From: Carnobacterium mobile DSM 4848 | GTDB lineage: Bacteria; Bacillota; Bacilli; Lactobacillales; Carnobacteriaceae | DNA length: 64,000 nt | Reading direction: 5' to 3' | NCBI RefSeq assembly: GCF_000744825.1 | Contig: NZ_JQMR01000001.1 | Location: forward strand, 310,001 to 374,000 | In this document: positions 22,065 to 61,258 of the stretch, in pieces | Numbering within the stretch: the first letter of the stretch is position 1 | Layout of the letters: every line of letters begins with the position of its first letter | Program-made: the position numbers and the translations under genes | The notes under the pieces: model-generated | What the model was told of the DNA's origin: nothing | The model's input: the letters and a program-made list of their open reading frames with translations, nothing else | The model's database searches: none

Positions 22065-22314
22065 GGTTCTATTATTTTTAGTGTTGATAAGAAGAATGAG
22101 TCTATTCCACAACTTGAAATTTTCAGAGGAATAGCGGCTCCTTGCAGCCATGTAAAGGATTCAATGCGAATTACGAAGCGGTTAGGCTTCGTTTGAGGCT
22201 TGAAAGGCTGGAGACATGTAAGGCTCCAGTCGTTCCCATGGCTCTTGCAAGCAGACGCGTAAATTCCGGAGGAAATTTCATTATTAAGCATGACCAACAC
22301 AATTCGATAAAGAA
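22065..22314. mobile_element. ISL3-type non-autonomous element (MITE), copy 1
   Basis: About 250 bp, differing from the copy at 60857 at about five positions. The left end is GGTTCTA-N11-GTTGAT; the right end retains ACCAACAC and AGAA but has lost the final CC, and no flanking duplication is visible. Predicted RNA folding: P1 TTGC+AGCCATG (22142-22152) with CATGGCT-ctt-GCAA (22237-22250); P2 ACGAAGC (22173) with GCTTCGT (22186); P3 CTGGAG (22208) with CTCCAG (22224). The open frame on the minus strand is not considered coding. Confidence 0.8.
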
Positions 22315-36898: not shown

Positions 36899-36939
36899 AC
36901 AAACACCATTTCTTTATCTATGGTGTTTGTTTTATTTTT
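36899..36939 (+). terminator. intrinsic terminator of the fab-acc operon
   Basis: ACAAACACCAT pairs with ATGGTGTTTGT, followed by TTTATTTTT. The last eight bases, with the next G, form the target duplication of the ISL3 element. Confidence 0.92.
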
Positions 36940-36940
36940 G
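36933..36940. repeat. 8-bp target duplication of the ISL3 element, left copy
   Basis: TATTTTTG, repeated at 38465-38472. Confidence 0.92.
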
Positions 36941-38464
36941 GGTTCTACGTCAACTGACGTTGGTGAAGAATTTTAGTCACTTATTTAATTAGAAATCCTA
37001 TACACTTTTCATGGTAAGCATTAAGCTGCCCTGAAAAGTGTTTTTTCTTTCTGTTTATAGTTGCTGGTTTCATATTAAAGTGCAGAAGAATACGGTTTTT
37101 ATAGTTCGCAAAGTTTCTGTAGCCATAGGCTACACGGTTAAGGACCTTAATCTTATTATTTATTCCTTCAATTTTTCCGTTTGAGTACTTATAGGCAAAT
37201 GTATTTTTAATGTGCTTTATATGCTTTTTCAATGTTTTAAGGCTCGTCTTCATTGGTTTTGAAATAAGTGGATAATCTTTTTCTAAAATCTTTACTAGCT
37301 CATCGTAGTCGTTTTTCTCAACCGCTTTGAGAATAGCTTGATACACCTCGTAAGTCTCTCTCAGAATAGTGTTATATCCTAACATTTCATCGACAATTGC
37401 TGATTCTAAGCGTAGACCAAATAGAGCATAATAAGTATATTTTGTATAAGATAGTTCAGATTCTTTCTTTAGGATTTTTTTCCAAAATCGTTTTAATCGA
37501 CGGTATTTTTTCATGTCTTCTCCGTTTGAGGTGTGAAATTGATTCATGACCGTTACCCTTGTACGGTTCAGTGAACGATTAATCAGCTGGACAATATGAA
37601 AACGATCAATGATAATTTTGGCGTTTGGAAAAAGCACGGGAATAAAATTGACGTAGCTGGCATTCATATCGACTGTAATGGTTTCTACTTTTTTTCTGGC
37701 CTTTAGGCTATAACGTGAAAGGAAATGGTCTTTTATCGTTCGGCTGTCTCGAGAAGGCAAAATATCAATGATCGTTCCTTTTTCGGCATCTATGTATTCA
37801 AAAGCCATTGTGCTGTTGGCATACTTAAACTCGTCAAACGAAAGATGTTTAGAAAGCCAGAAGTAATGCGGTTTATAATTCTTAGCTTGCTCATTAATAA
37901 CGCGTTGCGTCGTTGCTGAAGAGACTCTAGTTTGACTAGAGATATCTTTTATAGATTGAGCCATAGATGATTTATCTAAAATTTGTGCTTTTACAGGATT
38001 CGAAATAAAACAATTTTCTTTCAATAGAGGCGTTTTCGCAGTAAATGTAGCCCCACATCCTTTACACTTGAACCGTTGCTTCTTGAGTAATAAATAAGTT
38101 GGATGAACCCCGCTCATAGGCAAAGTAATACGTGAAACCTGTGTCCCGTTACGATAGATGGTATAGTGTTCGTTTGCTGCATGGCACTTCATACATTCCT
38201 GAGGAATGTAGGTCAAGCGGCCTTTAATAAATTTACATTTCTTCCCTTTGAATTGACCGTATTCTACGCAATCATCTTCAAAAATAATGTTTTTGTCTTG
38301 AATATCTAGTACTTTTCGCATATCATTTGATGTAGGCAAGTGAGTTCTCTCCTTTGGATGGGTTGTGGTGACTTTAATTCTACAGGAGAACTCACTTGTT
38401 TTCTATTTTTACGAAAAAAGACGTTAGCGAGTTTTCACTCACCAACGTCAAATATTGTACAACC
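36941..38464 (-). mobile_element. ISL3 family insertion sequence
   Basis: 1524 bp. Left end GGTTCTA-N11-GTTGGTGA; right end read inward GGTTGTA-N11-GTTGGTGA; both contain TGACGTTGGTGA. Flanked by the perfect 8-bp duplication TATTTTTG, as expected for ISL3. It carries one intact transposase gene on the minus strand and sits in the T-tract of the accA terminator. Confidence 0.94.
36981..38339 (-). CDS. ISL3 family transposase
   Basis: About 452 aa from a TTG at 38339 with AAAGGAGAG upstream on the minus strand. The N-terminal zinc-binding region has CMKCHAANEHYTIYRNG and FKCKGCGATF, then an HTH (SIKDISSQTRVSSATTQRVI). The DDE core follows with FDEFKYANSTMAF, TITVDMNASYVNFIPVLFPNAKIIIDRFHIVQ and the final Glu in KYSNGKIEGINNKIKVLNRVAYGYRN. 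All ISL3 hallmarks are present and the frame is uninterrupted, so it could act in trans on the similar-ended elements at 22065, 55950 and 60857. Confidence 0.95.
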   Translation of the reverse strand: MPTSNDMRKVLDIQDKNIIFEDDCVEYGQFKGKKCKFIKGRLTYIPQECMKCHAANEHYTIYRNGTQVSRITLPMSGVHPTYLLLKKQRFKCKGCGATFTAKTPLLKENCFISNPVKAQILDKSSMAQSIKDISSQTRVSSATTQRVINEQAKNYKPHYFWLSKHLSFDEFKYANSTMAFEYIDAEKGTIIDILPSRDSRTIKDHFLSRYSLKARKKVETITVDMNASYVNFIPVLFPNAKIIIDRFHIVQLINRSLNRTRVTVMNQFHTSNGEDMKKYRRLKRFWKKILKKESELSYTKYTYYALFGLRLESAIVDEMLGYNTILRETYEVYQAILKAVEKNDYDELVKILEKDYPLISKPMKTSLKTLKKHIKHIKNTFAYKYSNGKIEGINNKIKVLNRVAYGYRNFANYKNRILLHFNMKPATINRKKKHFSGQLNAYHEKCIGFLIK

Positions 38465-38472
38465 TATTTTTG
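38465..38472. repeat. 8-bp target duplication of the ISL3 element, right copy
   Basis: TATTTTTG, matching 36933-36940. Confidence 0.92.
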
Positions 38473-55949: not shown

Positions 55950-56178
55950 GGTTCTATTATTTTTTGGCATTGGTAAGAAAAATGAATCTATCCCACAATC
56001 TTGAAGTTTTTGGAGGAATAGCGGCTGCTTGCAGCCATGTAAAGGATTCAAAGTAGCACTGTAAGCATGAGCCCAAGTGTATCATGTCTATAAAACTGCT
56101 AAAGCAGTAACAGCCATGACAAGGCTTGAAAGGCTGGAGACACGAAATGATCCAGTCGTTCCCATGGCTCTTGCAAGC
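55950..56178. mobile_element. ISL3-type non-autonomous element (MITE), copy 3, diverged
   Basis: Left end GGTTCTATTA, conserved GGAATAGCGGCTGCTTGCAG and CAGTCGTTCCCATGGCTC, but the middle (56050-56130) is unrelated to the other copies and the right inverted repeat is missing. The fold is kept: P1 GCTTGC+AGCCATG (56027-56039) with CATGGCT-ctt-GCAAGC (56163-56178), two pairs longer than the other copies; P2 is replaced by ACTGC-TAAA-GCAGT; P3 is CTGGA with TCCAG. Confidence 0.7.
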
Positions 56179-56249
56179 GACTAATTTATCGTGTTACTAT
56201 GTATACGGTTACTTTTAAGGGAGAGAGATACTTGTAAATGTTAACTAGT
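56179..56249. other. intergenic remainder before the DUF1836 promoter
   Basis: No gene or clear repeat seen between the diverged mobile element and the inverted repeat at 56250. Confidence 0.4.
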
Positions 56250-60848: not shown

Positions 60849-60856
60849 AATAAACA
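60849..60856. repeat. 8-bp target duplication of MITE copy 2, left
   Basis: AATAAACA, repeated at 61109-61116. Confidence 0.82.
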
Positions 60857-61108
60857 GGTTCTATTATTTTTAGTGTTGGTAAGAAGAATGAGTCTATTCC
60901 ACAACTTGAAATTTACGGAGGAATAGCGGCTCCTTGCAGCCATGTAAAGGATTCAATGCGAATTACGAAGCGGTTAGGCTTCGTTTGAGGCTTGAAAGGC
61001 TGGTGACATGTAAGGCTCCAGTCGTTCCCATGGCTCATGCAAGCAGACGCGTAAATTCCGGAGGAAATTTCATTATTAAGCATGACCAACACAATTCGAT
61101 AAAGAACC
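60857..61108. mobile_element. ISL3-type non-autonomous element (MITE), copy 2, most intact
   Basis: 252 bp. The left end is GGTTCTA-N11-GTTGGT; the right end read inward is GGTTCTT-N11-GTTGGT, the same spacing as the ISL3 element at 36941. Flanked by a perfect 8-bp duplication AATAAACA. About 98 percent identical to copy 1. It keeps the same foldable P1, P2 and P3 helices; P3 has one weakened pair (CTGGTG against CTCCAG). Confidence 0.85.
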
Positions 61109-61116
61109 AATAAACA
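61109..61116. repeat. 8-bp target duplication of MITE copy 2, right
   Basis: AATAAACA, matching 60849-60856. Confidence 0.82.
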
Positions 61117-61150
61117 AAAAGAGGTTGACCCAAAGGGCCGACCTCTTTTC
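61116..61150. terminator. terminator between apt/MITE and lexA
   Basis: AAAAGAGGT pairs with ACCTCTTTT with a partly paired inner loop; A/T tracts on both sides allow use by the minus-strand lexA transcript as well. 61151-61258 contains AGCAACT/AGTTGCT (about 61219-61243) and nothing else I recognise. Confidence 0.8.
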
Positions 61151-61258
61151 CATTTCTTAATAATTTTTATTAAATATGTTCCAAACGGCAGACTCGATAT
61201 CCACTTTATCATGCCTGTAGCAACTTTAGCTACGTTAGTTGCTCTAAATTGTTTGTGT

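Follow-up and report, generated by a model that had tools for sequence, protein, structure and literature searches.

The 252-bp element and its copies

A 252-bp element lies on the plus strand at positions 60857–61108 of the window, by which is meant the whole 64,000-bp stretch of DNA analysed here (C1:310001–374000 of a 2.63-Mb genome), together with two further copies of the element and an autonomous ISL3-family insertion sequence (Table 1). The first-pass annotation had described the element as bounded by GGTTCTA-N11-GTTGGT on the left and, read inward, by GGTTCTT-N11-GTTGGT on the right, and both ends were seen as described, as was the perfect 8-bp duplication AATAAACA on both flanks. Likewise, the ends and the perfect TATTTTTG duplication assigned to the ISL3 element were both present. 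The 252-bp element shares with ISL3-family insertion sequences the end plan GGTTCTA-N11-GTTGGT and the 8-bp duplication, and differs from them in being without a transposase; a protein-coding interior was rejected, since no frame of at least 60 aa occurs within it. The second window copy lacks the last two bases of the right end and its duplication is gone, and the third carries an alternative P3 module (see below) and is without a right end. The window ISL3 element is present in two identical copies in the genome and has no core inside. A different dispersed repeat apparently begins directly behind the 252-bp element (window 61102–61235), and parts of this repeat match several other sites in G002. 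A similar-looking stretch was noted by eye behind the core of Atopococcus tabaci L208.

Table 1. Features of the element, its window copies and the ISL3-family element (window coordinates)
Feature	Position	Strand	Remarks
Left target duplication AATAAACA	60849..60856	.	8/8
Non-autonomous element, 252 bp, type A	60857..61108	+	
Left end GGTTCTATTATTTTTAGTGTTGGT	60857..60880	+	21–22/24 to ends of ISL3 elements L119, L126 and G103
Structured core, P1–P4, three-way junction	60907..61069	+	154 bits with model R1; 122 bits with R2
Right end, inward GGTTCTTTATCGAATTGTGTTGGT	61085..61108	-	20/24 to the ISL3 elements with a core in G103 and G020, right end to right end
Right target duplication AATAAACA	61109..61116	.	
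Second window copy, 98% identical	22065..22314	+	core 22115–22277
Third window copy, decayed	55950..56198	+	core match 56002–56198
Autonomous ISL3-family IS	36941..38464	-	transposase 36981–38339, 452 aa
Duplication TATTTTTG of the ISL3 element	36933–36940 / 38465–38472		

The element is short and multicopy, as expected of a MITE without a transposase gene: the 252-bp query gave 44 match pieces (E ≤ 0.001) in its own genome, which holds approximately 50 copies. The strict end pattern GGYTSTWN{9,12}GTTGGT was encountered 58 times in this genome, compared to 6 times for the reversed control pattern. Thirty own-genome copies were taken as loci, 28 of which were two-ended by the end criteria of the script. 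The 8-bp duplication was perfect in 17 of these 28, agreed at 7/8 positions in four and at 6/8 or less in seven, while combining left flanks with the right flanks of other copies gave 8/8 in 1 of 756 control pairs and 7/8 in 14 of 756. Related ends and target duplications, both well above their controls, are the marks of a MITE, and ISL3-type ends together with an 8-bp duplication those of an ISL3-derived one. The target duplications of the copies are A+T rich.

Precise empty sites were found for one copy (1973555–1973806, with a 6/8 duplication), which sits within another dispersed repeat. These were located in two sister genomes, G004 (L359, L361 and L364) and G001 (L362), where versions of the repeat lacking the insertion were approximately 96% and 90% identical to the joined flanks, respectively. 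The repeat hosting this copy (L003 1441–1864) occurs many times in G004, with 89–99% identity. At the window locus, apt and lexA are adjacent without the element in all four same-genus genomes, an absence that holds at the locus level only, as the sequence between the two genes has diverged too far to define an empty site to the base. Flanking proteins were compared for the 140 loci, of 186 tried, in which the core was located (many with only 500 bp of flank, and some places fetched twice), which gave 34 similar locus pairs between genomes. Only three of the 34 were similar on both sides, so most insertions look lineage-specific.

Chance and a non-mobile repeat were both rejected on account of the paired ends, the duplications and the empty sites. 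At the level of sequence, the 252-bp stretch is confirmed as a genuine non-autonomous MITE-type element with ISL3-like ends, and the case for its mobility and its link to ISL3 appears strong. This first-pass reading has stood, and neither of the two observations named beforehand as speaking against it, copies confined to the same orthologous positions without empty sites and flanks mostly without 8-bp duplications, was made.

Structure, covariation and distribution of the core

Mini-transposons are usually read as two ends plus filler, but here the interior outconserves the mobility ends between genera. The mean identity between genera, with gaps counted as mismatches, was 0.68 for the core, compared to 0.26 and 0.43 for the two spacers and 0.52 and 0.32 for the ends. 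In the consensus fold, the outer stem P1 contains a symmetric purine loop and is followed by P2, a long stem, and by a three-way junction, the arms of which are the internal-loop stem P3 and the hairpin P4.

Three alignments underlie the analysis of this fold. The first (A1) holds 51 elements picked for diversity from 99 extracted; the second (A2) retains 46 of these rows, L008 and L104 being dropped as near-duplicates and L062, L064 and L096 left out for deletions or rearrangements. The third (A3) comprises 91 matches, including two on the wrong strand (L221- and L223-), which were removed for the tallies of column conservation, unpaired composition and G-U pairs by group and were kept in the 91-match covariation analysis and in model R2. 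Among the 46 sequences, 93.7% of cells were paired and double changes occurred at 30 of 54 pairs, against a mean of 16.6 in shuffles; the covariation score was 0.250, compared to 0.119 in shuffles and at most 0.069 in slid versions, with the caveat that related sequences can outscore such shuffles. The wider alignment gave 92.8% paired cells and double changes at 52 of 54 pairs (87 distinct rows), though it leans to the model, having been fitted to it by construction. Order-wide, the unpaired columns were better conserved (1.04 bits) than the paired ones (0.71 bits), and the best conserved unpaired positions were AATGTGAATTAC / GTTTGAAGC and GAGAC..GGCTC. The covariation behind this three-way-junction structure is strong.

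In ten own-genome copies (L020, L021, L023, L024, L026–L030 and the window copy at 55950–56198), an alternative module, approximately 44 nt longer, replaces P3, which is the best conserved domain, and the core is therefore modular. The covariation counts are not descriptive of these copies, as all ten lie outside A1 and A2. Comparison of the window region with Rfam 15 (E up to 10) gave weak matches only, none at the gathering score; 12 loci gave no Rfam 15 match, and a search with 12 divergent loci returned only THF riboswitches, lying outside the cores.

Of the 18 family genomes, 11 contained the core; with at most 150 candidates scored per genome, each of these gave between 4 and 91 matches, and the own genome 47. 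With stricter filters and at most six candidates scored per genome, 41 of the 395 genomes examined from the order had the core, representing 22 of 80 genera, a few of the matches lying near E 0.001. Four of the 398 class genomes sampled also had it, each of them belonging to the same order, as did 1 of 299 sampled phylum genomes, which was the own genome. No core was thus seen in the genomes sampled outside the order (from the class, n = 398, and phylum, n = 299, samples), though the absences in the order, class and phylum scans are not firm, owing to the strict filters and the at most six or nine candidates scored per genome. Of the four other genomes in the genus, only one had the core. Carriers include Carnobacterium jeotgali, Desemzia incerta, Desemzia sp., Pisciglobus halotolerans, Atopococcus tabaci, Enterococcus rivorum, E. 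aquimarinus and Candidatus Tetragenococcus pullicola. A shorter sequence pattern returned 55 stretches, while the first, longer pattern returned none. ISL3-like ends were present in the Pisciglobus copies inspected, and none were seen by eye in E. rivorum (12 copies) or G145 (5 copies). Searches of plasmid and phage DNA and two scans of viral contigs found neither the core nor the element, and the four plasmid ISL3 loci scanned gave no core match.

Cores were in places arranged as tandem pairs, approximately 50–155 bp apart, namely at L078, L079, L080, L082, L083 and L086 in G013, at L229 and L250 in G145, and at L235 in G378. At six E. rivorum loci (L212, L217, L219, L233, L243 and L246), approximately 190 bp of homologous sequence lies upstream of the core; it includes an inverted Shine-Dalgarno-like motif, and an opposite-strand gene was called there in four of the six loci. 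This stretch may represent a leader cassette in repeated copies, and ISL3-like ends are not evident.

ISL3 transposases and core-bearing ISL3 elements

The own genome holds three PF01610 genes, corresponding to the two identical copies of the window ISL3 element and a third gene, in the ISL3 element at C1:1579206–1580728 (L119). This element has a 453-aa frame without stops and a duplication ATTATTTC. The left end of the 252-bp element agreed with the left end of L119 at 21 of 24 positions, compared to 14 and 17 for the two ends of the window insertion sequence, and its right end agreed with that of L119 at 18 of 24, compared to 16 and 13. Against the core-bearing ISL3 element of G103, which belongs to another family, the left and right ends scored 21/24 and 20/24, respectively. 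In the minor subfamily, represented by the 260-bp element at L346, the left end matched the right end of the window insertion sequence at 21/24 positions and another ISL3 element at 20/24, and the right end matched the window insertion sequence at no more than 17/24.

End similarity is suggestive of movement of the element in trans by an ISL3-type transposase. The first-pass annotation had proposed that this was probably the intact one in the window, a suggestion that is not supported for the type-A subfamily: with end matches of 17 and 16/24 at best, against 21 and 18/24 for L119, the window ISL3 element was rejected as the best candidate mobiliser. An L119-type ISL3 element appears to fit the ends better, a similarity that is suggestive only. 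Co-occurrence with ISL3 transposases was imperfect: PF01610 was present in seven of the 11 element-bearing family genomes, and the other four (G007, G012, G015 and G016) gave no PF01610 match at E ≤ 0.001. The copies in these four would thus have persisted beyond the loss of any resident ISL3 gene visible to the search, or have done without one throughout. Outside the family, PF01610 was found in 24 of 30 core-bearing genomes, a few of them with weak core matches, compared to 32 of 59 in the whole relatives set, which amounts to a weak association with the core.

In G103, cores trail ISL3 transposase genes at a near-constant distance. All eight full-length ISL3 elements examined there (1780–1783 bp, 98–100% identical to L310) comprise left end, core and right end, and they are flanked by eight different perfect 8-bp duplications. 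In L310, the transposase gene (802–2154, 450 aa) is followed 16 nt past its stop codon, in the same sense, by the core (2171–2378), with the right end at 2458. One of the eight elements has a shorter open frame of 362 aa, and a ninth, broken transposase copy also has a core downstream. A second type, a 1810-bp ISL3 element of G020 and G281, carries a diverged core (53 bits, with the P3 loop lost) after the transposase gene in three of three copies examined in G020 and two of two in G281; another ISL3 type of G020 (L321 and L322) has no core. The transposases of the window, G103 and G020 ISL3 elements all match PF01610 and NF033550. ISL3-family elements are not otherwise known to carry a structured core downstream of the transposase gene.

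Among 55 ISL3 loci scanned, not all of them complete, the core lay within the element in only two, both from G103, and 50 gave no core match. At L306 and L288, the core lies 74–78 bp outside the left end of an ISL3 element, and at L302 (G028) a 3' fragment of a transposase gene is followed by a core, an arrangement that looks like a relic. Within the element's own family, one or a few ISL3 loci per genome were scanned, and none carried a core; at L123, a lone weak core match with model R1 (17.6 bits, E 0.035) was not repeated by R2.

When the ends of the mini-element were compared crosswise with those of the G103 element (left to right), they agreed at 16 and 17 of 24 positions, well below the like-to-like values given above. 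As the ends and the core stand in the same order, polarity and orientation as in the G103 element, an internal deletion is the simplest origin, and the mini-element looks like an internal-deletion derivative of a core-bearing ISL3 element in which the RNA was kept. The origin may also have been the reverse, with the core captured by an ISL3 element. Nested insertion of a MITE as the source of the core in the G103 element was rejected, since no further well-formed pair of ends occurs inside; a scan for ends gave only one chance-like hit with two mismatches.

Related systems and possible function of the core

The nearest described kinds of element appear to be BOX, RUP and SPRITE (PMC3049150) and bcr1 (PMC6542083). 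BOX, RUP and SPRITE are, as described, likewise small dispersed repeats with strong folds; BOX is modular, RUP of Streptococcus pneumoniae has ends like those of a resident insertion sequence, and SPRITE is enriched near the 3' ends of convergent genes (PMC3049150). By this comparison of descriptions only, they differ in having been reported in pneumococcus, whereas the present core occurs in several families. The bcr1 repeat of the Bacillus cereus group is also a high-copy mobile repeat, with an average of 39 copies per strain, but on a comparison that again is by description only, it has a TTTAT motif and a proposed recombination-like mechanism and belongs to one species group (PMC6542083). 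ISL3 is not mentioned in the main text of the bcr1 paper (PMC6542083) or in that of a 2024 MITE review (PMC10969869). The reRNAs of IS607 TnpB (PMC11061315) and the 5' tnpA RNA of IS200 (PMC12594629) are, from their descriptions, conserved structured RNAs tied to a transposon gene as well, whereas the present core is found on the 3' side of a DDE transposase gene and seems not to be needed for movement. Among the matches listed from the open-licence literature searched, none described the element or its core. Across the order, double changes have kept the fold of the core, which also follows the transposase gene in ISL3 elements that look active. On the RNA reading, if true, the core would represent a class of RNA that Rfam 15 lacks and that transposition has spread to approximately 90 copies in some genomes.

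The best explanation overall, which we regard as probable, is that of an ISL3-derived MITE, moved in trans and descended from an ISL3 element that carried the RNA. The ancestor would have been an ISL3 element whose structured RNA, in mRNA sense, followed the stop codon of the transposase gene and preceded the right end; the transposase gene would then have been lost, while the left end, the RNA core and the right end were kept with order and polarity unchanged. An ISL3-family transposase would move the resulting MITE in trans, leaving an 8-bp target duplication. Within a 3' UTR, the core would set the fate of the transcript (its 3' end, stability or access), first that of the transposase mRNA and, in the MITE, that of the transcripts at whose 3' ends the element lands. 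Both the direction of descent and the function of the core are what we infer from these arrangements, and a 3'-UTR module that sets the fate of its transcript is offered as a tentative best guess at function. We come close to even confidence, though somewhat short of it, in the wider proposal of an order-level class of structured RNA, without a counterpart in Rfam 15, that belongs to ISL3 transposons. It would lie within the 3' UTR of the transposase mRNA in some autonomous elements, and selection on its unpaired nucleotides would maintain it in hundreds of derivatives without a transposase, spread over several families, where it would act on transcripts at the insertion site or in trans on the transposase mRNA.

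The gene setting of the copies bears on these proposals. When genes were called by a simple ORF caller, the 30 own copies divided into 12 between convergent, 17 between co-directional and one between divergent genes, compared to 7 convergent, 50 co-directional and 7 divergent among the 64 adjacent gene pairs of the window, called in much the same way. Such placement would also suit a cis-element that the host has domesticated at the 3' ends of its genes, as a bidirectional 3' end or an insulator, and that was spread by transposition and kept for the host. Low G-U content (see below) would fit a structure needed on both strands, and copies do persist in genomes without ISL3 transposase matches. 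The sites are, however, rarely common to species, as reflected in the few locus pairs that agree on both sides, and target choice together with selection against harm also gives 3'-end placement, and we consider a host element of this kind rather improbable. As for orientation, 29 of 46 loci from four other groups had co-directional neighbours, and in 24 of the 29 the plus strand of the core opposed them, which is a misfit with a simple sense 3'-UTR role there. The trend in the own genome is the opposite, with 12 cores running with their co-directional neighbours and 5 against.

The compensatory changes themselves could alternatively have arisen from DNA-level correction of an imperfect palindrome by template switching in the hairpin arms, the core being an ordinary long MITE hairpin without RNA function. 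G-U pairs are scarce for an RNA, occupying 121 of 2405 cells in the family alignment and 143 of 4310 in five other groups, which keeps room for a DNA-level or both-strand explanation. Moreover, the core folds strongly on both strands, the composition of the unpaired bases gave no decision on the strand, and copies of two species, L025 and L058, now have a perfect palindrome in place of the conserved internal loop of P3, a sign that (quasi-)palindrome correction may be at work. On the given strand, G-U exceeded A-C by 121:43 in the family alignment, where slid controls were near 1:1, and by 52:15 and 25:7 in two of the other groups, whereas the ratio was nearly even in the remaining three (39:27, 6:4 and 21:19). 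The excess of approximately 3:1 or more in the former speaks against palindrome correction, as do the top conserved positions across the order, which are unpaired, and the orientation of the core behind the transposase gene, which is fixed in two types of insertion sequence. We therefore hold correction at the DNA level to be an unlikely source of the covariation, and the core likely works as RNA rather than DNA.

Whether the core is needed for movement can be judged from elements that have lost it. Two coreless elements, one of 104 bp at 1295726 and one of 103 bp at 1554350, share both the 260-bp subfamily's ends and an internal deletion that took out the core, and they are flanked by different perfect 8-bp duplications. 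A second coreless type is represented by L036, with an 8-bp duplication, and L034, with one end lost. Insertion of coreless derivatives at different sites suggests that the core is apparently dispensable for transposition; a requirement for it was rejected on the two insertions of one coreless derivative. This also sets the element apart from RNA-guided or bridge-RNA transposons, for which the RNA is needed to transpose. That the core should be needed in cis, like a guide-like or bridge-like RNA, is very improbable, as its retention in most copies and its place behind the transposase gene in some ISL3 elements are outweighed by both coreless types and by the rarity of the core among the ISL3 loci scanned. 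Dispensability for movement means that the conservation of the core needs another reason. Core-bearing and coreless derivatives within one genome make a ready system in which to study what a transposon gains from a structured RNA, if the RNA reading is true.
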